Virus record (IMG/VR): IMGVR_UViG_3300045820_000026
Coordinates: 1-28,304 of that record
DNA from: a virus
Reading direction: 5' to 3' (one strand)
Length of the DNA stretch: 28,304 nt
The notes beneath the pieces are model-generated. The model ran no database searches. It was not told where the DNA came from and saw nothing but the letters and a program-made list of their open reading frames with translations. Made by a program: the position numbers and the translations under genes. How positions within the stretch are numbered: position 1 is the first letter of the stretch; every line of letters starts with the position of its first letter. Of the stretch, positions 2,232 through 27,920 are shown piece by piece.

Positions 2232-5200
2232 TTAGCGCCAGTTACCGAAGTCGGTCAGGTGACGTGTCGCCAAGTCGTTTGCTCTGATGCCGAGCGGCAT
2301 CCCAAGACCCCTCGCCTGCGCCGCCTGCTGCACCTGTCTGGTCAGCTGCATTGGGAAGCCTTGGAGAGGTCCTACCATTCCGGGGTTGTTCTGGGCGTAC
2401 TGCCGCGCCTGCTGCATCCAATAGGCTTGGTCCCCGCGCTCTCCTGTCGACTGAGCGAGCATCAGATGCCGGTCAATGTTCCCTGATCTGTAACTCCGCT
2501 GAGCCGTCAAGCCCTGCTCCGCCTTCACTGCCTCGTCGTAATCCGCCTTACGCGCCGGCTCGATCCCTACTGCCTGCAGCAGGTTTTCCCAGTGCGCCGG
2601 CTGGATCGGAAGTGGCGTCCCGTCCTTGTTGATGTAGCCGTACTTCTCCGCCCGATAAGCTCCAACCATATCCCTGAGCGTTTCAGGCAGGATTTTCTGG
2701 AGGCCAAGCATGTAGTCGCCATTCATCATGTCCCGCGCGCCCAGAGCGGCGTTTGTCACATCTCCGAATGCTGCGCCAGCCATGGACCTCAGCCAGTCAT
2801 GCTCCGCGTCCTCGAACTTGCGCTTCTCCTGCATCATCCGAGTGAAGGGGATTACATGCTGGAAGCCGAGTTCGGAGAGGTCGATCCCAGCAAACCGCGG
2901 CAGCCCGCGCGCAACAGCCGCTCCAACTTGAGGCCCGAACACGCTATCCAGCCAGTGCCGGTAAGACGCCTCGACATTAATGTCGTCCCTTCCGGTGAGC
3001 GCCGAAGCGATCTTGTCGTAAGCGCCGGACAGGAACCCTGCCGCCGGGAGCCCGAGCGTACCGGCGAGCATCATGGTTGACGCGGCGTGCGCCAGCAGAA
3101 ACCTGCCGGACTCGATCTGGTTGGCCTTGCGCTCCTCCGGCGTGGCTCCGACCTTGCCAAACAGCCCGTTGAGTTCGCGGTAATATTGCGTCAACACACG
3201 GGTCTGAAACGCGGTGAAACTCAGCATCAATGGCGTCGCCTGCCCGAACGGGCCGGACTTCCCGGTGAGACGAGAGGTAGCGGAGGACGAGTAGTCCTTC
3301 TGTGACTGTAGAATGGACCGAGAGACGAAGTCCTCGACCGACGGCGCGAGCTTCATCTGCTGATCCTTCGGCAAAGAACTATAAAGCTCTCTCGCTGCAG
3401 CACCTGTCCAGATGCGAGGAATAAGCTCGGTATAGCGCCCGATAGCGTTCGCCCACCCAACCATTTTTGCGGTGCGCGGATCGCCTCCCTCGGCCGCGGA
3501 GGTCATCATGTGAGTGAACGTGCCGCCGGTATAATCCCCGTGGTTGGCATTACGCATGTGGAACAGCGCTTTGTCCGCCCCAACCGCCTTGACCAACTCG
3601 TCGTGGCTGAACCCGCCTGACTCGCCATACTCTCCCCCGATAACGGCGCGCGTCACCTTCATCGCCTCGTCGAAAGTCTTAGCGAGTGTTGGAACCACGA
3701 CCCTATAGGGGAAGTTCTTGACGAACTGCGGCACCGTAAACATTGGTATCTGGCTCAGCATCATCAGGCCAACACCGGGAGACGAGCCTATGTGCGCGGT
3801 AGAAACCGCCGCCAGCGCCGTATCAAAGTATGGATTGGACTGTGTCCACGCTTTTTGCGCCTCACGAGTGATGATCTCGTCCGCGAAACGCTGCGCCGCC
3901 GTGGCGTTGCCATTCGTCATCGCTTCCGGGTCAGACTTCAACGCCTTGACGCCGCTACGCAAGGACTGCAGATTGGCGGCAATATCCGCACGGGTGCCGT
4001 AATCCGCCACCGCGCCAGCGCCTCTGAGCACGCGCTGGTTAAACGCCTTGAGCATATTCTCATCGAAAGCGTGAACGCTATCGCGCTTTTGCAGGCTCTT
4101 GGCCAAGGAGTTGTCTGACAGCACCCCCATCCATTGCCGCGTCAGAGCCCCGAGCGCCTGCGTGTGCGCCTTCGCGTAAGCGGCCTTGGTGACATCGTCC
4201 GCGTCCTCTGGAGGCTCCGGCAAGCGCTCCTGCAGCGCCGCGATCTCTCGCGCCAGAAACTTCGGCCCGACACCGGCCATCGCTACGGGGTCGTCGATTT
4301 TGCCGGACTTGATGGTGCTCTCCCCACCATCTTCCTTGGCGAAATGTCCTTGCTTCTCCAACTTGAGGAATAGGGCTGCCGCCTGCTGCTGCTGAGCAGC
4401 GGTGTCCACCCGCAGGAAAATCCGATCGGAGGCCAAATCTTTTTGCACTGTCAGACCATCGAAACGAGCCTCTTTCAGAGCGTCGGCGATCGCCGCAACC
4501 GAGACAGGGTTAGGACGCCCGTCTACTGTGGCGATGCGCCCCCCAGCGAAATAATCGCCGTTGCCGTGTGTGACCGGGAAGTACGCCGCGCCCTTCTCAA
4601 CCTGATCTATTCCTTTGCCGACCAACGCCAGCTGCGACACAAGACCTTCCTGACTCCCGGGCTTGTCCAGCACGAGTTTATCAGCGAGATCGGTTAGCCC
4701 TTTGAGCCGCCCCTGCCAGAACTTCTCGGTCTCTGCCGGGCTGCCGTGGATCGCATCGGCGTACTGGAACTCCCGCGACGGGTTGACGACACCCTTCATC
4801 GACTCGGGCGACGCGCCCTGCATAAAGTGATGAAGCTGAGACGCCAGCTCGGCATACCGGGTCGCCCTCAGTGTGGTGCGCGCGGCCTCATAAACGTCCA
4901 ACGCCTTCATCGAACCCGCGTCTCGATAGTCCTTATTGGCCTCCAGTACCAATTTCTGCAGATCGGCCGCGTTCGGCTCCTTCTGGAGCCACGTATGCTC
5001 CGCCCAAGTCTTTGCCGGGTCGACATCCCATGCCGACCAGCGCATCAGCTTATTGATCTGCTCCTGAGCCTTGGCTGGAAGCGCCGTGATGTCCTTGATC
5101 GCCGATGCGCCGACCTGCGCCATGTTAGATGCGATCATCCGCCGATCGCGGTTGAACTGGTCGTGAACCTCTCCCTGCCCGAGGCCATAATTTTTCAGCT

Positions 5201-8200
5201 CCCAACCGATATGCTGCATCTCTGTGGCATAGGCGCGGGCCTGCGCCATCGTCTCTTTCAGGCCGGGTCCCAGCTTCTCAAAGAACGACATAGGGACGGA
5301 TTTGAGGTCCTCCCGCATCTTGTCCACGATCGGGTTCATGCTGCGCATGACTTCGTTGGCGTGAGGCACCGAGCCGGGGACCGGCTCACGCCCCGGGATC
5401 GGATCGCGGCCATCGGTCAACTTGAGCTTGGCGGTCTCATCCATCACCCGCCCAGAGATGTCCAGCACCTGATCGAAAGCATTTCTCAAACGTGGCTCGA
5501 TACCGAGCATCCGCCCGAACGTGTTCTTGATTTGTTGCCACAAGCCGGGGCTCTGCGACTTGAGATAGGCCTGCACGTAGGGATTGGAGTGCGACTCAGC
5601 CATGAACTCGCGCGCGGGCGTGTCCCCCTCCCCCGGGGCGTTGAACGCATAGGCCAGCGTCGGGTCGGCCTTCACCTCCGGGGACGCGGCATCGGAGATG
5701 CGGGAGAATACCTTCTTGAACACCCGCCAGCCGGGCGAGTTGGCGTCGGCTGCGGCGTTGGACAGCGGATGGATGACCTCGTGCAGGGCGTCCCGCGACG
5801 CGCCAGCAGTGCGGTTGAAGGTGATTGCGCCGGTGCCCCTGTCATACTCCGCGTTTGTCGACCAGAGCCCCCCTGAGCCGTCGTCCGTCCCAAGTTTCAA
5901 CGGCGCTTTGACCCCGGTCTCTTGGGCGCGGCCGAACAGCCGCGCGGCAATCTGGGACTGGTCTCGATCTGGACTGGTGTTGGCAATGTGGGCCAGCACA
6001 TGCTGGATGTCGCCGCCGGCCTGCACCGTGTCGATCACTCCCTGATCCGGGGCGGTCTCCTCGACGCCAGCAGCCGATCGGCTGTACTGCTTGTCATCAC
6101 GACGATGAGCCAGAAACTCCTCAATCGAAAGCGGCGACCCACCTTTCTTGAGGGCCGGAGCGACGAGAGAAGTCTTAGCGGTTTCGACAGGAGCTGTCGT
6201 GTGCGGAACGGTCTCTACCACGCCCGACCCGGCCCCCGCCGCACGCGCCGCAGCGGGGTTCACCAGTGGCTTGTATATGTCTCTCCCCAGTGCTTGGGAG
6301 CGTATGTTCTGCTTCCCCAGAGCATCAATGGTCTGCCCGAACTGCGCATTATCTCGGATGCCCTCCGCCTCCTGCGCATTGGCCGCAAGGATGGCGTCAT
6401 TGCTGCTCAACGTAGGATTACGGCCTCTGGAGGAGTCCTCGTCGGTCTGCGCCGGCAGCTCAGTGGGCTTGGGAGCCTCAGGAGGTTTGGGAGCTTCAGG
6501 AGCAGAGTTCAGAAACTCATGCGCCTGCGCCGGCGTCATGTGTTTGATCTCGTCCGCCGTCTTCCCACGCGCCCGCATCTCCGCCTTCATCTTGGCGGTG
6601 ATCATGAACGGAATGCCGCCATCCACAGTCCCGGCGGCCGGGGGCTCGGGAGGCTTGGGGGCCTCAGGCGTCCCTACCGCCGCGACCTTGCCATCCTTGA
6701 GCCCAAGTGTGCCCTTGGGGCGCTCTACCGGCCCTGCGGTCGGTGCGGGGGCCTCCTTGGCCGCCTCCGTCGCCGGGTCGATCCACAAGAGATGGAATTT
6801 GTCTGTCCTCTTGGGGTTAGGGTTGCTCAGCGCTGCATCGCCTTCCGCCTTGATGTCACGAGGATTGTCAAGGTTCATCAGCTGCGCGGTCTTGTTCTCC
6901 CGCATGGACCAGAGCGCGGCATCCAGATCGGCACGCGGGATGTCGCTCAACTCCTTACGGAGCGCGCTGAGCCGCACGTTATCCTGCGCCGGCTGCCCGG
7001 CGAGCTTGTAGAACGCCTGCTTGATGCGGTCCTCTACCGGCCCTGCGGTCGGTGTGGTGGCTTCTTGGACAGGTGCTGGTGTTTCGGCTGCGCCTTCGAC
7101 AGGTGCTTGGGCGGGGATTTCTTCAGGACCCGGTCGGGGAGTTTCGTTCCCGACGGTGTTGCCTTCTCGAACTCCGTCGACAGGTCTGGCCGGTTCTCCC
7201 GTAGCCATCGTCTCTGGGCCTCTGACTTCAGCGGCATTCTTGGCCTCCCTTGGCTGCTCAATAACCTGTCCGCTCTTGTCAATGATGCCGGACTTCAAGG
7301 CCAATGCCTCGACCACAGGGTTGTAGCCCTTGGCTCCGCCGCTCTGGATGCGGTTCCGCACCGCCTCGACCCACGCTTGGTCGTGCGACAATGTCGGGTC
7401 GGCCTGCATCAGGACGACCGCTTCCTTGGCAATATTCCCGACAACCTGCGTCGGCTTGACGTTTGCGCCTTTGAGTACCTCCCTCAGCTGTCCCTTGACG
7501 ACCTCCGGGTTCGCCTGAACCGGCAAAGGCGCGGGAGCCTCTCCCGCGGTGTCGAAACCGGGAGCCTGCGGCCCGACATACCCCGGACGATCCTGAGGCA
7601 CGCCTGCCGGCGGCAACGGCTCCTGCAGCGGCTGGCCGAAGAGTTCGTTCTGATAGCCCACCGGAGCCTGATTGCGCTGATCGTAGACCCCAAGGCTCGG
7701 CCAGACATCACCCTGTGGACTGACAAACCCACGTTCCGCACCGGGCGGCTGGTAGGTCAACTGCCGAGGAGGCTCGGGAGGCGTATAAACCGGCGCGCCG
7801 GGCAGCACTTCAGCCTCACCCATCCGGCGCTGCTGGAACGGCAGGCCCGGGTCGAGAGGGGTCGGCGTCGGCGGAAGAGGAGCCTCTTGGTTCCCGATCG
7901 TGGCGTCATCCCACCGGCGCTGCTGGAACCCCGGAGGACCTTCAGCAGGGACTTCAGGGGCCTGAGCAGGCGCGCCTGCAGGCTGCTCCGGCGGAACAGG
8001 CGTATCCATCCCGTGAGGCTTGTTTCCGCCGAGCGCGCCGCCAGCACCGCCGAACAGGCCGCCGATCGCGCCGCCGAGCAGGGCGGACTTGACGATCTCC
8101 TTGGCACGATCCGCGAATGGGGTGGTGGGGTCGGCGAACGGCTGATTGAGCGCCGTCTGGACGCCCGCCTGCAGCATATTGGTCGCGCCGGCCGCCGCGC

Positions 8201-8903
8201 CGCCGGTCAGCACACGCTTGGTAATGCCTCCAGCAAGCCCTTTCTCCGCCAGACCACGCAACTGCGTCGGCATGATCGCGCCGACCGCCGCCTCAGGAAC
8301 GCCGACGCCCAGCGCCAGCGCCGCCTTGCCTTGATCAGGGCCTCCGTTGGCCAACTGCTCCTGATAAGCGCCGCCGGCCATAAGCGGATAGCCAGCCAGC
8401 CCGCCGCCGATCAGATGTCGAGCCCATTCTGAGCCGGCCGCTTCCGCAACTTCTCCAACCGCGCCGCCTGCGCCGCCCAAGAGCCTCGGCACAACACGCC
8501 CGAGAGCCGCCAGAGCCGCAGGGGCCTTAGCCGGAGCCAGAGCCGCGCCGCCCGCCATGAACGCCGCCAGTGTCGGAACCGCCTTGGCGACCTGATACCC
8601 CATGCCGGGGACTGACCACGGGCTGCCGGAGTGATCCGGTCCACCACCGAACTCGTACTGCGGCAAACCGGCCGCCTCTGACGCCGCGCCGAGCCTTCGA
8701 GCCCAGTCCTCGCCGCCTTCGGCCAGTGGAGTGATGCCGGTCGCGCGGCCAACCGCGCCGCCGAAACCTGCCAACGAGCCCCCGAGCCCGAGCACGCCAG
8801 AGGAAAGGCCCGCGACCAACGGGTTTGAGCCCATCGCCGGCTCAGGGGGAGGAGGGGCCATCTTCGGCAGCGAGTTGAAGAAGTTGGCGTCAAAACCAGC
8901 CAT
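2232..8903 (-). CDS. Giant polyvalent / internal virion protein with zinc-metallopeptidase motif (2223 aa)
   Basis: One uninterrupted frame. Residues about 24-310 are Gly/Ala-rich and hydrophobic, suggesting membrane-active helices. About 290-960 are Pro/Glu/Ala-rich linkers with a repeated FQQRR motif near 326 and 356, and a short helical motif (MITAKMKAEMRARGKTADEI) from about 767. A metallopeptidase signature follows: HEVIH at 1041-1045 and EFMAE at 1099-1103, the usual HExxH plus downstream Glu spacing. The C-terminal half is long, helical and charged, and ends in a Gln-rich tail. It resembles the very large 'polyvalent' or PLxRFG-type phage proteins, but I cannot assign named domains with certainty. 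By position it is probably packaged in the head and ejected with DNA, the peptidase cutting a virion or host protein. ATG at 8903 lies one base after the previous stop. No good Shine-Dalgarno is visible, so translation is probably coupled. Confidence 0.9.
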   Translation of the reverse strand: MAGFDANFFNSLPKMAPPPPEPAMGSNPLVAGLSSGVLGLGGSLAGFGGAVGRATGITPLAEGGEDWARRLGAASEAAGLPQYEFGGGPDHSGSPWSVPGMGYQVAKAVPTLAAFMAGGAALAPAKAPAALAALGRVVPRLLGGAGGAVGEVAEAAGSEWARHLIGGGLAGYPLMAGGAYQEQLANGGPDQGKAALALGVGVPEAAVGAIMPTQLRGLAEKGLAGGITKRVLTGGAAAGATNMLQAGVQTALNQPFADPTTPFADRAKEIVKSALLGGAIGGLFGGAGGALGGNKPHGMDTPVPPEQPAGAPAQAPEVPAEGPPGFQQRRWDDATIGNQEAPLPPTPTPLDPGLPFQQRRMGEAEVLPGAPVYTPPEPPRQLTYQPPGAERGFVSPQGDVWPSLGVYDQRNQAPVGYQNELFGQPLQEPLPPAGVPQDRPGYVGPQAPGFDTAGEAPAPLPVQANPEVVKGQLREVLKGANVKPTQVVGNIAKEAVVLMQADPTLSHDQAWVEAVRNRIQSGGAKGYNPVVEALALKSGIIDKSGQVIEQPREAKNAAEVRGPETMATGEPARPVDGVREGNTVGNETPRPGPEEIPAQAPVEGAAETPAPVQEATTPTAGPVEDRIKQAFYKLAGQPAQDNVRLSALRKELSDIPRADLDAALWSMRENKTAQLMNLDNPRDIKAEGDAALSNPNPKRTDKFHLLWIDPATEAAKEAPAPTAGPVERPKGTLGLKDGKVAAVGTPEAPKPPEPPAAGTVDGGIPFMITAKMKAEMRARGKTADEIKHMTPAQAHEFLNSAPEAPKPPEAPKPTELPAQTDEDSSRGRNPTLSSNDAILAANAQEAEGIRDNAQFGQTIDALGKQNIRSQALGRDIYKPLVNPAAARAAGAGSGVVETVPHTTAPVETAKTSLVAPALKKGGSPLSIEEFLAHRRDDKQYSRSAAGVEETAPDQGVIDTVQAGGDIQHVLAHIANTSPDRDQSQIAARLFGRAQETGVKAPLKLGTDDGSGGLWSTNAEYDRGTGAITFNRTAGASRDALHEVIHPLSNAAADANSPGWRVFKKVFSRISDAASPEVKADPTLAYAFNAPGEGDTPAREFMAESHSNPYVQAYLKSQSPGLWQQIKNTFGRMLGIEPRLRNAFDQVLDISGRVMDETAKLKLTDGRDPIPGREPVPGSVPHANEVMRSMNPIVDKMREDLKSVPMSFFEKLGPGLKETMAQARAYATEMQHIGWELKNYGLGQGEVHDQFNRDRRMIASNMAQVGASAIKDITALPAKAQEQINKLMRWSAWDVDPAKTWAEHTWLQKEPNAADLQKLVLEANKDYRDAGSMKALDVYEAARTTLRATRYAELASQLHHFMQGASPESMKGVVNPSREFQYADAIHGSPAETEKFWQGRLKGLTDLADKLVLDKPGSQEGLVSQLALVGKGIDQVEKGAAYFPVTHGNGDYFAGGRIATVDGRPNPVSVAAIADALKEARFDGLTVQKDLASDRIFLRVDTAAQQQQAAALFLKLEKQGHFAKEDGGESTIKSGKIDDPVAMAGVGPKFLAREIAALQERLPEPPEDADDVTKAAYAKAHTQALGALTRQWMGVLSDNSLAKSLQKRDSVHAFDENMLKAFNQRVLRGAGAVADYGTRADIAANLQSLRSGVKALKSDPEAMTNGNATAAQRFADEIITREAQKAWTQSNPYFDTALAAVSTAHIGSSPGVGLMMLSQIPMFTVPQFVKNFPYRVVVPTLAKTFDEAMKVTRAVIGGEYGESGGFSHDELVKAVGADKALFHMRNANHGDYTGGTFTHMMTSAAEGGDPRTAKMVGWANAIGRYTELIPRIWTGAAARELYSSLPKDQQMKLAPSVEDFVSRSILQSQKDYSSSATSRLTGKSGPFGQATPLMLSFTAFQTRVLTQYYRELNGLFGKVGATPEERKANQIESGRFLLAHAASTMMLAGTLGLPAAGFLSGAYDKIASALTGRDDINVEASYRHWLDSVFGPQVGAAVARGLPRFAGIDLSELGFQHVIPFTRMMQEKRKFEDAEHDWLRSMAGAAFGDVTNAALGARDMMNGDYMLGLQKILPETLRDMVGAYRAEKYGYINKDGTPLPIQPAHWENLLQAVGIEPARKADYDEAVKAEQGLTAQRSYRSGNIDRHLMLAQSTGERGDQAYWMQQARQYAQNNPGMVGPLQGFPMQLTRQVQQAAQARGLGMPLGIRANDLATRHLTDFGNWR

Positions 8904-12042: not shown

Positions 12043-12468
12043 TTAACCCTCGATCTCGTAGATCAGCAGCGAGCTGGCGGCCGCGAGAGCCGCCGACAGC
12101 GTGATCGTCGAGTTGCCGGCAAGATCGGTCGAGACCGAGATCGCCGAGGTCGTGTCGACCGTGCGGGTGCCCGCCGCGACCGTCTTGATCGTATTGGTCG
12201 CCGCCATACCGCGATACCAGTCCCAGCGGATGTTGTCGGTAACATCCGTAATGGTGACAGCGGCCACCTCCGTGCCAACCGGGATGTCGACCACATTGCC
12301 GGCTCCGGTGAAGTAGCCGGAGATGTCGCCGTCGTCGCTGAACAGCGGGTTGCCGATCAGCAGATTGGCCGTGGAGGTGAAGCCGAGCACCTGCAGCGCT
12401 CCGGGGACGATATAAGTGGCCGGGAACGAGGACCCGTGAAACGTGACGTCGATGCCATTGGTGGTCAT
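12043..12468 (-). CDS. Probable capsid-associated or decoration protein (141 aa)
   Basis: The ATG at 12468 follows AGGAGC, which overlaps the TAG stop of the homing endonuclease gene. The protein is rich in Thr, Ser, Ala, Val and Gly, with alternating beta-type segments (VDIPVGTEVAAVTITDV, TVDTTSAISVSTDLAG) and a single RWDWYRG motif. There are no Cys and no membrane segment. Being the next structural gene after the major capsid protein, and without sequence of an enzyme, it is a good candidate for a head decoration or stabilising protein. That is inferred from position and composition only. The endonuclease gene probably inserted between it and the capsid gene. Confidence 0.78.
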   Translation of the reverse strand: MTTNGIDVTFHGSSFPATYIVPGALQVLGFTSTANLLIGNPLFSDDGDISGYFTGAGNVVDIPVGTEVAAVTITDVTDNIRWDWYRGMAATNTIKTVAAGTRTVDTTSAISVSTDLAGNSTITLSAALAAASSLLIYEIEG

Positions 12469-12477
12469 GGTGGGCTC

Positions 12478-12969
12478 CTAGTGTGTTCTGGCGAATACGC
12501 CAAAATGTTTCTCTGCTGCATTGCAGTAGGCTGCGTGAGCCTCCTGTCTGGTGTCGAACCGGCCTAGATGGATTTGCTTCCCGTCCACACGGATACGCGC
12601 CTCAAACTTCGCCACTCCGAACCTAGTAACCTTGACGACCCCTTTTGCCCCCTCCTTGTTCGCCGGCAACATGCTCTTGTTCGCTGCGTTCTGAGATGCT
12701 GTAGCCTCTCTCAGGTTTCCCCAGCGATTATCAGCCATATTCTTGTTCCGGTGATCTATTTGAGGCTCCGGCCAGCGACCCTCCATCCAGAGGAAAGCCA
12801 GTCGATGCGCTAAATAAAACCGTCCCTCGTACCTGACTGATAAGTACCCTCTGCTGCTCCGCGTCCCAGCGACCGCTCCTGCCTTGTGTTTTGAGATATT
12901 GACTCGCCACCGTAGCAAACCTGTCTCTGGGTCGTATGCGAACAATTCACGAACTAATTGGGCGTCCAT
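12478..12969 (-). CDS. HNH homing endonuclease with AP2-type DNA-binding domain (163 aa)
   Basis: Residues 1-60 hold the 'YDPETGLLRWRV' and 'GYLSVRYEGRFYLAHRLAFLWMEG' segments that precede the nuclease in this family. An HNH core follows (QIDHRNKNMADNRWGNLREA, then TASQNAANKS), with the His-Asn pattern of HNH_3-type enzymes. From about residue 108 there is an AP2-like domain (GVVKVTRFGVAKFEARI, then HLGRFDTRQEAHAAY). Such free-standing enzymes cut DNA lacking their own gene and spread by repair. It sits alone between capsid and decoration-type genes, same strand, with no sign of an intron or intein. ATG at 12969 follows AAGGAGAGA. That ribosome binding site lies in the 3' arm of a stable hairpin, so translation is likely kept low. 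Confidence 0.93.
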   Translation of the reverse strand: MDAQLVRELFAYDPETGLLRWRVNISKHKAGAVAGTRSSRGYLSVRYEGRFYLAHRLAFLWMEGRWPEPQIDHRNKNMADNRWGNLREATASQNAANKSMLPANKEGAKGVVKVTRFGVAKFEARIRVDGKQIHLGRFDTRQEAHAAYCNAAEKHFGVFARTH

Positions 12970-12972
12970 TGT

Positions 12973-13003
12973 GTCTCTCCTTGCCTTTGAAGCAGGGAGA
13001 GAC
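12973..13003 (-). promoter_or_regulatory. Hairpin that buries the ribosome binding site of the HNH gene
   Basis: On the minus strand GTCTCTCCCTGC (13003-12992) pairs with GCAAGGAGAGAC (12984-12973). That is twelve positions with one C-A mismatch and a 7-base loop. The whole Shine-Dalgarno AGGAGAGA lies in the second arm, and the stem ends three bases before the ATG at 12969. Readthrough mRNA from the capsid promoter would fold this way. It resembles the hairpins that silence middle/late translation of phage T4 homing endonucleases. Confidence 0.75.
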
Positions 13004-13039: not shown

Positions 13040-14089
13040 TTACGCGGTCGCTCCGACCTCAAGACGGGCCATGAACGCATCCTGAAGGATGACAGTCGCG
13101 GTCCAGAGCTTCCAACCTACTGTGCCCCGCTGGCCGAGCGGATCGCCCGGGGCCGGCTTCGGGTTGACGACCATTGGCGTCATCGAAGATTTGCCCTTGA
13201 GCGGGACGATGCCGAAGGCATCGCGGCCGAAGAACAGAACCGGATAGATGTCGGCGCTGGTGCCGCTGGTGGAGCGCATCGCGCCCTTCGCGCCGCCGGC
13301 ATCCGCCCACGGAGCAAAGATGGTGGAGGTCAGGTAGCGGACCTGCTCGACCGAACCGATCTCGCCCTCGAACGGGGAAGTGTGCGGGCCATAGCTGGCG
13401 ACCGGGATGAAGCCAGTCATGTTACGGACGTCGCTTTCCAGATCGGGGTGGGTGATCGCCATGTAGGAGGCTTCGACCGATTTGGTGTTGAAGTCCGCCG
13501 TCGAGGCGACCACCGTGGTGATCTTCTTGGCGTTCTGGCGGTTCAGGCCGGTCGTGACGCGCCGCTGATCGGCCAGCGCGATGGTGGTGATCACCGAGGA
13601 CCGGCCCACAACGGCGTTGGCGTAGAACACATTGGTGCCGGCCTTGAGCACGTTGAAGCGCAAGGTCTCGACCGTCGACGCCGCCGACTCGCCGAGGATG
13701 TCGGTCATCTGCTGCAGGATCGGGTCGGTGTGGGTGTCCTCGATGACGTCGGTCATCGTCATGAAGTCGCCGTACTGGTAGAGCTGGACCGTATAGTCCT
13801 GATTGGTCAAGGTCGAGCCCGTCGGCGTGACGCCTTCAACCAGCGGCGTGATCGCCACCGGGATGCTGAAATTGGCGGAGGCGATGGCGTCCGGGCCAGC
13901 CGCGCCGGTCGCGCCGATCATGTAATAGCGACGGAACTTGGCGGTCTGCGTCGAATTGGTCGGCAGCGGATAGGTCTGGCCGAACTTCTCGATGTGCAGA
14001 TAGGGAAGGGCGCGCTTGAGCAAGCGGACGACGGAATAGGCGGCAACTGCCGGAGATATATCTCCAAACGATGTAATCGCGGTGGCCAT
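13040..14089 (-). CDS. Major capsid protein, N4-gp56 family type (349 aa)
   Basis: The N-terminus (ITSFGDISPAVAAYSVVRLL, then ALPYLHIEKFGQTYPLP) fits the N4-gp56 capsid family. So do the following 'TAKFRRYYMI', 'LVEGVTPTGSTLTNQDYTVQLYQYGDFMTMTDVI' and 'QDAFMARLEVGA' segments. This family has the HK97-type fold and builds the procapsid shell on the scaffold. The length is within the usual range. ATG at 14089 has AGGAGA upstream. The gene has its own promoter (14198-14226), allowing expression beyond that of portal and scaffold. There is no N-terminal cleavage extension visible. Confidence in the assignment is high, by pattern recall. Confidence 0.93.
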   Translation of the reverse strand: MATAITSFGDISPAVAAYSVVRLLKRALPYLHIEKFGQTYPLPTNSTQTAKFRRYYMIGATGAAGPDAIASANFSIPVAITPLVEGVTPTGSTLTNQDYTVQLYQYGDFMTMTDVIEDTHTDPILQQMTDILGESAASTVETLRFNVLKAGTNVFYANAVVGRSSVITTIALADQRRVTTGLNRQNAKKITTVVASTADFNTKSVEASYMAITHPDLESDVRNMTGFIPVASYGPHTSPFEGEIGSVEQVRYLTSTIFAPWADAGGAKGAMRSTSGTSADIYPVLFFGRDAFGIVPLKGKSSMTPMVVNPKPAPGDPLGQRGTVGWKLWTATVILQDAFMARLEVGATA

Positions 14090-14197
14090 GATGGTCTCCT
14101 AATTAGCGTTCACATTGGGGTGTGAGAGCTGACTTGGGCCATCGAAAGCGCCGCTTGCTTGGCCTATCGAGGCGGTTCAGTGCTTACAGTGGCGAGT

Positions 14198-14226
14198 ATG
14201 ATAGTTAATTCCAGAGGTTATGTCTA
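14198..14226 (-). promoter_or_regulatory. Sigma70-type promoter of the major capsid gene
   Basis: On the minus strand TAGACA (14226-14221) is followed by 17 bases and TATCAT (14203-14198). Each hexamer differs from consensus in one base and the spacing is optimal. A start about 14190 would give a leader of roughly 100 bases before the capsid ATG. The region between scaffold and capsid holds no gene. Confidence 0.65.
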
Positions 14227-14230
14227 GTGG

Positions 14231-14250
14231 GCGGGGGGATTGCCCCCCGC
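14231..14250 (-). terminator. Perfect GC hairpin after the scaffold gene
   Basis: GCGGGGGG and CCCCCCGC form an 8-bp stem with a 4-base loop, about six bases past the scaffold stop. No T run follows on either strand, so it may be a weak terminator, an RNA-processing site or a 3' end stabiliser. It is followed at once by the capsid promoter. Confidence 0.45.
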
Positions 14251-14256
14251 AACACT

Positions 14257-20309: not shown

Positions 20310-20339
20310 TTGACATTAACGCATAGATAGTGCTATACT
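20310..20339 (+). promoter_or_regulatory. Sigma70-type promoter of the 234-aa gene
   Basis: A perfect TTGACA (20310-20315), an 18-base spacer and TATACT (20334-20339, one base off). The start would be near 20346, about 40 bases before the ATG. Dyad copy 1 lies just upstream. Confidence 0.75.
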
Positions 20340-21269: not shown

Positions 21270-21296
21270 CATCTAACCATAACTCCGAAACCATAA

Positions 21297-21326
21297 CCCG
21301 CCGTGCGAAAGCCCGGCGGGTTTTTT
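21297..21326 (+). terminator. Intrinsic terminator of the 234-aa / 41-aa unit
   Basis: CCCGCCG (21297-21303) pairs with CGGCGGG (21314-21320) about a 10-base loop, followed by six T. A textbook rho-independent terminator for rightward transcription. Confidence 0.9.
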
Positions 21327-22139: not shown

Positions 22140-22171
22140 TTGACAACAGAACTATAGTGTGCTACTATAAT
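22140..22171 (+). promoter_or_regulatory. Promoter of the rightward small-gene operon
   Basis: A perfect TTGACA (22140-22145) is followed by TACTAT at 17 bases (22163) or a perfect TATAAT at 20 bases (22166). Overlapping ACTATAGT...ACTATAATGATAGT symmetry covers the spacer and -10. The leader runs about 80 bases to the first gene. The long spacer for the best -10 suggests a promoter open to regulation. Confidence 0.6.
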
Positions 22172-22495: not shown

Positions 22496-22510
22496 TGTTA
22501 ACCATTAACA
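22496..22510. repeat. Dyad copy 4 (TGTTAACCATTAACA)
   Basis: Directly after the TAA of the 77-aa gene. It is followed at once by the perfect 11-bp hairpin at 22511-22537. Confidence 0.85.
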
Positions 22511-22537
22511 AGCCGCAGGCTACAGCAGCCTGCGGCT
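22511..22537 (+). terminator. Perfect 11-bp hairpin without T run
   Basis: AGCCGCAGGCT pairs with AGCCTGCGGCT about the loop ACAGC, next to dyad 4 and just before the AGGAG of the next gene. Lacking a T run, it is more likely a processing or stabilising structure, or a weak attenuator. Confidence 0.5.
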
Positions 22538-22556
22538 CACCTTAGGAGCCTTGGAT

Positions 22557-25492: not shown

Positions 25493-27874
25493 ATGCCTAA
25501 CGAAGTCTACTACATCCTGATCGCCGCCAAGTCCGGCGAGGCGCACAAGGTCGAGGGTGAAATCAAGCTCTACCCGTCCCGTGATGCCGCCATCATCGAC
25601 GCCATCGCCTTGCGCGAGACCAACCCCGACCAGCACTACCTGATCGAGGGGCCGCACACCAAGGACCGGCTCAACTGGCAGGCGCGAGAGCGGGCGCGGC
25701 TGGACGACGGGACCCATACGCCGCTGATCCCTGAGCTGGCGCAACACTGCAAGCCCGGTCACTTCGCCCATGTGGCCAAGGGCGACCCGAGGTCCTTGGC
25801 CTATACCAAGAACGAAGCCGACGGCATCCGCGACATTCAGAAGCGGATGAACGTGGCGGCCTATTTGGAGGCCTACGCCAATCTGACCAGTGACCAACGC
25901 CGCTTCCTGCAGGAGATGCACCAGAACATGGCGTCGGAGGCCGACCTGCTGATCGCCAAGACTGGCGATGAAATTCAGGAGGTCTATCAAGAGCATAACG
26001 GCGAGGGCGGCGTCGGCTCCTCGTGCATGAGGCACGACACGGATGTCTTCGCTGGAAGCCAGCACCCCGTCCAAGCCTATGGCGACAGCGATCTGGCGGT
26101 GGCCTACACCAAGGATGAGCAGGGACGCACCACGGCGCGGGCGATCATCTGGCCGGCGAAGCGGTGCTACTCCCGCATGTACGGTGGGGATCGCTACCTG
26201 CCGGAGCTGAAGCGGTTGATGATGGCGGCTGGCTACAAGCCATCGCGCGGCTACTACGGCCACTGCTCGGACGCCTCCGAGCACTCGCTGGCCGGCGCGC
26301 GGCTCAAGGCGGTTAAGGATGAGCATGAGCGAGGCAGCTACATCGTCCCCTACCTTGATGAGTGCTGCGTCGGCGTTCTGGACGACGCGAAGGAGTGGAT
26401 CACCCTTCACAACGAAGCGCCTGCCGGAGCCAGGATCATCAACATCAAGGAGACCAGTGGCGTCTCGCGGGTATCCGGGCCGCGCTGCCCGTCCTGTCGC
26501 TCCACCAGCACGGGAGACGCGCCGTTCGTATTGGCGTTCACGACTTATCCGGCGGAAGAGGGTCAGGTCTCGCAGCACTGCTCGAACTGTCTCAACTCCT
26601 ACACTTTCGTCTGCGCGGGGACGGGCCAGCGCTACAACTCGAACAGCGTCTCCCGGGCCAACGCGAATGGGCAGGATTATGTTCGGGCTTGGGCGGAGGC
26701 GAACCTGCCCATGTGCGGGAGCTGCGGCAACTTCACCCGTCCCGAAAGGTTTCTGCCGATCAGGAAGTCCTTGGCCCCGGAGCTGTCTAAAATCTGTCCA
26801 TCCTGCGCCAGCGCCGGTGCGTTCTGGTGCGAGGAGGATGGTGTGCTGACGTCCGACAACCTACGCATCCGGGCGCTCGACGTCGGGGCGCGCAAGCGGG
26901 TGGTGATGGGAGACGTGACCAAGCTGATCGACAGGGGCTATTCGGTCCTGTCGAAGCGCGCGGCGGCGGACCCTGTCTGGGGTGAGCTGCACACCATCGC
27001 TCTTGCCGAGGTCGAGCATGGGCCTGTCGAGTTGTGTCAGGTCAAAGTCCTCACGGGCGCGCCGGTCACGAACTTAGCCGGGAGGTCGGTCGAGCAGTAC
27101 CTTGGCGTCGTCTCCGCCTTGCGGCGGATGCTGGTCGGCTACAAGCCTGTCTGCTGGACGCCCGAGATTGAGGCCCGGCTTCCGCATGTGGGAGATTGGG
27201 TCAAGGTCCGCGACGCTCTGGCCTTCTCCGAGGCGAATGGCTGTGTCGGCTTGGTCCTCGACACCTGCACGCATCCGACTCACCCGTTCATGGTTCGTTT
27301 GTTGGATGGGCGCGAGGCGTTCTGCGCGTGCAGCAGTCTGACCAAGGTTCCGAGGCCGGAGGTCAATGTCATTGTGCCAAGGACCGCTCCCCACATTGGG
27401 GAGACGGTGATGTTCAACCACTACTCAAGCCCGAGGTTCGGGCAGCGCGGCGTGGTCGAGAAGATCGAGAGCAATGGTCCCCTGTCCGGCGGGCCGACGC
27501 TCACCGTCCGGTTCCCAGATGGATCGTCGCGGCGGGCGGCTCCCATCCGGCTCCAGAGGATCGGACCCGAAGTCGAGCCTGATCCTACCTTGCCGATGGA
27601 CCTGCCTGTCCCTTTGCTGCCGTCGAACGTGATCTACCGCCCGCCTCACGTCTGGCAGTTGGGCGACCGCGTGAGGCTGCTGCCCAACTGCGTCGAGGTC
27701 TCGATCCCGGCGCGGGAGATTGGACGGGAGGCGGTGGTGATAAGCATTAGCTTCGAGCGTCTTGTCGTCCGCATGGAGACGGGTCACGCCAGCACCGGCG
27801 ACGAATGGTACGTCCGGCCGGGCGTGTGCGAGCTGATCGAGGCCGCGCCCTCCTCGATCGAAGCGGCAGAGTAA
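25493..27874 (+). CDS. Large unknown protein with zinc ribbons and SH3-like repeats (793 aa)
   Basis: ATG at 25493 with a GGAGAG site, behind dyad 7. Residues 1-330 contain the motif GSSCMRHD (about 175-182) and 'LAVAYTKDEQGRTTARAIIW', a pattern I recall from phage proteins of unknown function. Cys pairs at 332-335 and 363-366 (CPSC, CSNC), and at 408-411 and 435-438 (CGSC, CPSC), form two likely zinc ribbons. The C-terminal part has three segments beginning 'VGDWVKV' (about 565), 'IGETVMF' (about 634) and 'LGDRVRL' (about 722), each followed by turns typical of SH3-like barrels. No catalytic motif is seen. The size stands out in an operon of tiny genes. A nucleic-acid-binding or host-interaction role is possible. 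Confidence 0.85.
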   Translation: MPNEVYYILIAAKSGEAHKVEGEIKLYPSRDAAIIDAIALRETNPDQHYLIEGPHTKDRLNWQARERARLDDGTHTPLIPELAQHCKPGHFAHVAKGDPRSLAYTKNEADGIRDIQKRMNVAAYLEAYANLTSDQRRFLQEMHQNMASEADLLIAKTGDEIQEVYQEHNGEGGVGSSCMRHDTDVFAGSQHPVQAYGDSDLAVAYTKDEQGRTTARAIIWPAKRCYSRMYGGDRYLPELKRLMMAAGYKPSRGYYGHCSDASEHSLAGARLKAVKDEHERGSYIVPYLDECCVGVLDDAKEWITLHNEAPAGARIINIKETSGVSRVSGPRCPSCRSTSTGDAPFVLAFTTYPAEEGQVSQHCSNCLNSYTFVCAGTGQRYNSNSVSRANANGQDYVRAWAEANLPMCGSCGNFTRPERFLPIRKSLAPELSKICPSCASAGAFWCEEDGVLTSDNLRIRALDVGARKRVVMGDVTKLIDRGYSVLSKRAAADPVWGELHTIALAEVEHGPVELCQVKVLTGAPVTNLAGRSVEQYLGVVSALRRMLVGYKPVCWTPEIEARLPHVGDWVKVRDALAFSEANGCVGLVLDTCTHPTHPFMVRLLDGREAFCACSSLTKVPRPEVNVIVPRTAPHIGETVMFNHYSSPRFGQRGVVEKIESNGPLSGGPTLTVRFPDGSSRRAAPIRLQRIGPEVEPDPTLPMDLPVPLLPSNVIYRPPHVWQLGDRVRLLPNCVEVSIPAREIGREAVVISISFERLVVRMETGHASTGDEWYVRPGVCELIEAAPSSIEAAE

Positions 27875-27882
27875 CCAACAAG

Positions 27883-27907
27883 CAAGGGCGGGAGCATCCC
27901 GCCCTTG
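27883..27907 (+). terminator. Perfect 10-bp hairpin after the 793-aa gene
   Basis: CAAGGGCGGG pairs with CCCGCCCTTG about AGCAT. No T run follows; its end overlaps dyad 8 by two bases. Probably a partial terminator or processing site. Confidence 0.6.
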
Positions 27908-27920
27908 TGAACCATTCACA
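27906..27920. repeat. Dyad copy 8, compensated variant (TGTGAACCATTCACA)
   Basis: Both arms have changed (T to G and A to C) so that they still pair. Flanks extend it to TTGTGAA/TTCACAA. About six bases before the AAGGAG of the 45-aa gene. Confidence 0.85.

Follow-up and report, generated by a model that had tools for sequence, protein, structure and literature searches.

Organization of the endonuclease locus

The stretch analyzed here, positions 1 to 28,304 of the IMG/VR virus record IMGVR_UViG_3300045820_000026 (the window), encodes an HNH endonuclease directly behind its major capsid protein gene. The subject of this study is the leader between the two genes, in which a hairpin over the Shine-Dalgarno (SD) sequence overlaps a promoter-like site. 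The features of the locus are as follows (aa, amino acids; nt, nucleotides):

13040-14089, minus strand: major capsid protein gene, upstream neighbour (phrog_1357, major head protein, E = 7e-63; Pfam Phage_capsid_4)
13031-13026, minus strand: -35-like TTGACG (consensus scan; TTGAC conserved in relatives)
13007-13002, minus strand: -10-like TATAGT, spacer 18 (consensus scan)
13003-12992, minus strand: 5' arm of the stem, GTCTCTCCCTGC (inverted-repeat and folding analysis)
12997-12993, minus strand: predicted transcription start, about 12995 (deduced from the -10 position)
12991-12985, minus strand: loop of 7 nt
12984-12973, minus strand: 3' arm of the stem, GCAAGGAGAGAC (inverted-repeat and folding analysis)
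12982-12977, minus strand: SD sequence AAGGAG, wholly within the 3' arm
12969-12478, minus strand: HNH endonuclease gene, 163 aa (HNH_3, E = 1.9e-13; phrog_99, E = 2e-61)
12043-12468, minus strand: next gene downstream, located directly behind the capsid gene in HNH-free relatives

By family match to HNH_3 and phrog_99 the gene product is classified as a homing-type nuclease. Its gene sits between two intact reading frames and, with its HNH_3 domain, is not of the GIY-YIG/intron-encoded type. The C-terminus of the protein shows a weak AP2-like match (E = 0.002), below Pfam's cut-off.

A hairpin encloses the Shine-Dalgarno sequence

The arms GTCTCTCCCTGC and GCAAGGAGAGAC are Watson-Crick complementary at 11 of 12 positions, the sole mismatch being C12995/A12981, and 3 nt separate the end of the stem from the ATG of the HNH gene (12969). 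Past the mismatch, the pairing proposed by RNAfold is shifted slightly deeper into the loop (TGCTT/AGGCA). The initial annotation is thus borne out in its description of both the hairpin and the gene order: it had placed the endonuclease gene after the capsid gene, and its SD sequence within the 3' arm of a one-mismatch hairpin.

Under a Markov-1 model, 0.5 inverted repeats of this quality (arms of 12+12, at most one mismatch, loop of 3-10) are expected in the whole 28 kb, versus five places found; the one in the endonuclease leader covers the SD sequence. Folding z-scores amount to -3.5 (81 nt, plus strand) and -3.2 (101 nt, minus strand), with 0 or 1 per 200 shuffled sequences folding equally well. 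The compact SD hairpin has an energy of -18.0 kcal/mol; of 542 control genes, which were called mechanically, 1.3% reach this value. A search against Rfam gave no match at E <= 1. The four other strong inverted repeats lie at 22510-22538, 1734-1760 and 27882-27908, all without a T-run, and at 21295-21322, followed by a terminator-like T-run.

A hairpin at this position might also be an intrinsic terminator or a 3'-end or processing element of the capsid message, its overlap with the SD sequence being accidental. Strong hairpins do follow the capsid stop in the HNH-free relatives L009 and L010. However, no T-run is found 3' of the stem in the window, the stem is not among the hits of the terminator scan, and the stems of the relatives are registered on the SD sequence, not on the capsid stop. 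We regard this as the least probable of the explanations considered.

A promoter-like site overlaps the 5' arm

The consensus scan revealed a sigma70-like site, TTGACG-N18-TATAGT, at 13031-13002. The 5' arm begins within the -10 element and shares its last two bases. As the -10 element ends 32 nt before the ATG, transcription is predicted to start near 12995, within the 5' arm. This lies in the stretch, between 12970 and 13000, in which a search for a start had been suggested beforehand. With the stricter pattern TTGACN-N16-18-TANNNT, the site is the only minus-strand match in the window. A rough base-frequency estimate gives one or so chance matches per window, so that the window alone proves nothing about the promoter, and the weight rests on conservation. 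On the plus strand the strict pattern occurs at 20310-20339 and 22140-22168, in the region of the plus-strand genes, and both sites start with CTTGACA. The plus-strand genes searched gave no match to a Pfam or PHROG family and hence no assignment to early functions.

The T4 late promoter TATAAATA is absent from the leader, which has the sigma70-like site instead. The sigma70 consensus of Sinorhizobium meliloti is CTTGAC-N17-CTATAT (PMC2873474). Searching genome contigs with the capsid identified a relative of 80% identity in an alphaproteobacterial metagenome-assembled genome, where no HNH gene was seen at the start of the spacer after the capsid gene; genome contigs searched with the HNH alignment gave no relatives. 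Given the capsid relative and the S. meliloti consensus, a host-type sigma70 promoter for the endonuclease is plausible.

Pairing and TTGAC are conserved while the sequence changes

Counting identical leader copies once, we found seven further distinct HNH leaders behind capsids of the same family (phrog_1357) that are 72-99% identical to that of the window. In the following, W denotes the leader of the window and L-numbers denote relatives. Five related HNH genes, 58-66% identical to that of the window, lie behind the same capsid gene, and a quick FastTree run joins W, L002, L003, L071, L088, and L092 in one HNH clade (local support 98). Other layouts occur in L113 and L283. A more distant HNH gene, present in L206 and L137, is located behind a head protein of another family, phrog_371.

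Across the six aligned leaders of the clade, TTGAC is the only invariant run, and little else is common to them. In each of the eight leaders (the clade plus L206 and L137) it begins 55-62 nt upstream of the start codon, compared with 18 of 894 controls. When the arms of the clade are cross-paired, matching every 5' arm with its own 3' arm gives the best summed energy among 720 permutations; with L206 and L137 added (eight 5' by eight 3' arms), the true assignment alone of 40,320 reaches its summed energy. Since the MAFFT alignment of the leaders misplaced the 3' end of L002, pairs were counted from a register set by hand on GGAG: at 11 stem positions changes occur in both partners, while the SD core hardly varies. 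Pairing and TTGAC are hence kept among the relatives while the sequence changes.

This variation bears on the idea that the inverted repeat and TTGAC form a DNA operator through which the endonuclease represses its own gene, the RNA stem being secondary. There is a precedent in I-TevI, whose late promoter is overlapped by an operator that the enzyme binds (PMC2988022), and the weak AP2-like match noted above might be taken in the same sense. Arms that vary with pairing retained are, however, expected of an RNA stem and not of a fixed binding sequence, and we judge an operator very unlikely.

The leaders were further compared by the energy needed to open the SD sequence on a long RNA, which includes 120 nt upstream as in read-through from the capsid gene, and on a short RNA beginning at the predicted promoter start. 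The costs (long/short, in kcal/mol) are 13.9/1.6 for W, 12.6/2.5 for L003, 16.4/0.8 for L071, 13.6/3.4 for L088, 9.2/2.4 for L092, 9.6/0.3 for L206, and 11.8/1.5 for L137. Seven of eight leaders thus require 9-16 kcal/mol on the long RNA and 0.3-3.4 on the short one. The difference in the window is 12.3 kcal/mol; differences of at least 10 occur in two of 537 control genes and of at least 12 in none.

Among HNH-free relatives, L009, L010, and L062 have a strong G+C-rich hairpin between the capsid gene and the next gene, which the HNH-bearing relatives do not have.

Probable joint exchange of leader and gene

The presence of HNH genes behind this one capsid gene is scattered. In L007, the capsid gene and the next gene are 99% identical to those of the window, while the last ~100 nt of the capsid gene drop to about 90% identity, the leader and the greater part of the HNH gene to ~40-70%, and the last 75 nt of the HNH gene are again 100% identical. 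Leader and HNH gene diverge as one block, which points to their joint exchange, and the flanking tract resembles co-conversion. Scattered presence and block exchange of the leader with the HNH gene between near-identical phages would fit mobility. L007 does not align with the window immediately before the capsid gene, over about 14105-14255.

A second capsid family shows the same layout

A search with the phrog_371 capsid yielded nine distinct HNH leaders behind that capsid. Five of them, L300 (= L206), L313, L320, L341 (= L137), and L338, have TTGAC 55-58 nt upstream and a stem burying the SD sequence. In L360 and L369 the stems are long and enclose large loops, and TTGAC is absent; L326 and L355 reveal partial occlusion. 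In spacers of this family without an HNH gene, TTGAC was found in 1 of 50. L113 and L326 resemble L360 and L369 in that a long stem with a large loop is located at or over the SD sequence and TTGAC is missing; the loop of these four leaders might hold a promoter.

In the HNH tree the occluded genes are spread over at least three groups, and at least three changes on well-supported branches are needed, which would mean either separate origins or several losses. An SD opening cost of at least 8 kcal/mol was computed for 12 of 17 HNH genes behind phrog_1357 and phrog_371 capsids, versus 4 of 72 HNH genes elsewhere (Fisher p = 4e-8, a value that overstates the case, as the sequences are related). 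HNH genes behind these capsids are far more often occluded than others, which fits the argument from read-through.

Extending the pattern to phrog_99 HNH genes in general was rejected, a compact SD hairpin of at most -14 kcal/mol occurring in 0 of 70 others. In the stretches examined of the phage isolates NV1.1.1, JWDelta, 16-3, KpV17Sklif, and PS-1, which have similar HNH genes, none is annotated directly behind a capsid gene. HNH genes located elsewhere in L155, L157, L109, L124, L132, and L141 have a terminator-like stem upstream, often followed by a CCTCTGACCA-like sequence, possibly a separate leader type.

A probable translational lock on the endonuclease gene

We consider it probable that the leader acts as a lock on the translation of the HNH gene, a free-standing homing endonuclease gene. 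RNA reading through from the capsid gene would carry both arms, the stem would form, and the SD sequence would be unavailable, such that even an abundant capsid message would give little endonuclease. From the sigma70-type promoter, whose -10 element lies over the start of the 5' arm, a short RNA would begin inside that arm; missing most of it, this RNA could not form the stem and would be translated. With the capsid stop 36 nt before the 5' arm and given the usual footprint of a ribosome, a ribosome terminating on the capsid gene should not reach and melt the stem. What the computations show is the layout of the leader, its retention among relatives despite altered sequence, the gap in opening energy, and the excess of occluded HNH genes behind the two capsid families examined; promoter use, repression, and homing by the protein are inferred. 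The interpretation given in the initial annotation is likewise supported at the sequence level by the buried SD sequence, the same-strand capsid gene upstream, the promoter-like site, and the relatives that keep pairing and TTGAC.

Several observations weigh against the lock. L002 is exceptional in its weaker stem and its opening costs of 4.5/3.6 kcal/mol (long/short). The control genes and their starts were called mechanically. HNH genes behind phrog_1328 (L105, L128, L209) and phrog_264 (L170) lack the hairpin; they were left out of the 17, and moving them across gives about 12 of 21 versus 4 of about 68. When all HNH genes are tested jointly for SD hairpins, there is no enrichment. Finally, the -10 elements are variable, those of L071, L088, and L092 being weak at a spacing of 16-18.

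The weak -10 elements also speak for a simpler function, in which the hairpin only represses, TTGAC and TATAGT are unused, and a little enzyme is made at a basal level, either from read-through RNA or through an unfolding signal. L113, L326, L355, L360, and L369, occluded or partly occluded yet devoid of TTGAC, point the same way. Such a function would leave unexplained why TTGAC alone is invariant in the clade and stands at a near-constant distance in all eight leaders, while 47 of 50 post-capsid spacers of the phrog_1357 family without an HNH gene lack it (it occurs in 3). Pure repression therefore appears unlikely to us.

The translational lock could be extended to timing. HNH genes settling behind a capsid gene may repeatedly evolve a self-locking leader, and with a promoter of the host sigma70 class and a late capsid message, production of the enzyme would be early and its silencing late, opposite to T4 I-TevI. 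We put this forward tentatively, as a conceivable but doubtful extension.

Comparison with known systems

The parallel drawn at the outset to T4 hairpins that hide the ribosome binding site (RBS) and have an internal promoter is correct (PMC2988022, PMC3014915). In these reviews, the RBS-sequestering design is described for I-TevI, I-TevII, I-TevIII, segB, and Aeh1 mobE. In the I-TevI leader, a stable stem hides the SD sequence on long transcripts, and the promoter is placed so that the short transcript cannot form the stem (PMC2988022). As in I-TevI, and also I-TevII, I-TevIII, and segB, the SD sequence of our leader would be locked on long transcripts and the short transcript would miss a needed sequence. 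In contrast, I-TevI is a GIY-YIG enzyme, intron-borne, expressed from a T4 late promoter and blocked on early/middle RNA, whereas the gene in the window is a free-standing HNH gene behind a capsid gene with a promoter resembling the S. meliloti sigma70 consensus CTTGAC-N17-CTATAT (PMC2873474).

The Aeromonas phage Aeh1 gene mobE (PMC2988022, PMC3014915) is similar in being an HNH gene located outside introns, with a hairpin-sequestered SD sequence and a promoter nearby. Reduced translation was demonstrated for mobE, while our leader is described by computed energies; the likeness is one of layout, and no sequence relation is claimed. The T4 genes e, soc, and 49 also have RBS-hiding helices acting as a translational lock on longer transcripts but are not mobile endonuclease genes.

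In the literature compared, homing endonuclease genes with RBS-hiding hairpins are reported from T4-like phages only. Here an I-TevI/mobE-type layout lies outside these phages, with a promoter that would be of host type. That the same layout is built from different sequence, in two capsid families and at least three HNH tree groups, suggests a repeated pressure to lock a nuclease landing behind a highly transcribed gene. This amounts to a rule, open to testing, that ties regulation to the insertion site, and the relatives provide natural sequence variants for compensatory tests.

Further observations

Outside the locus, the window encodes two very long proteins without a Pfam match, one of 793 aa (25493-27874, plus strand), which has no PHROG match either, and one of 2223 aa (2232-8903, minus strand). 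A second, different HNH gene is located upstream of the capsid gene in two of the relatives (L002:1283-1774 and L113:1327-1836).
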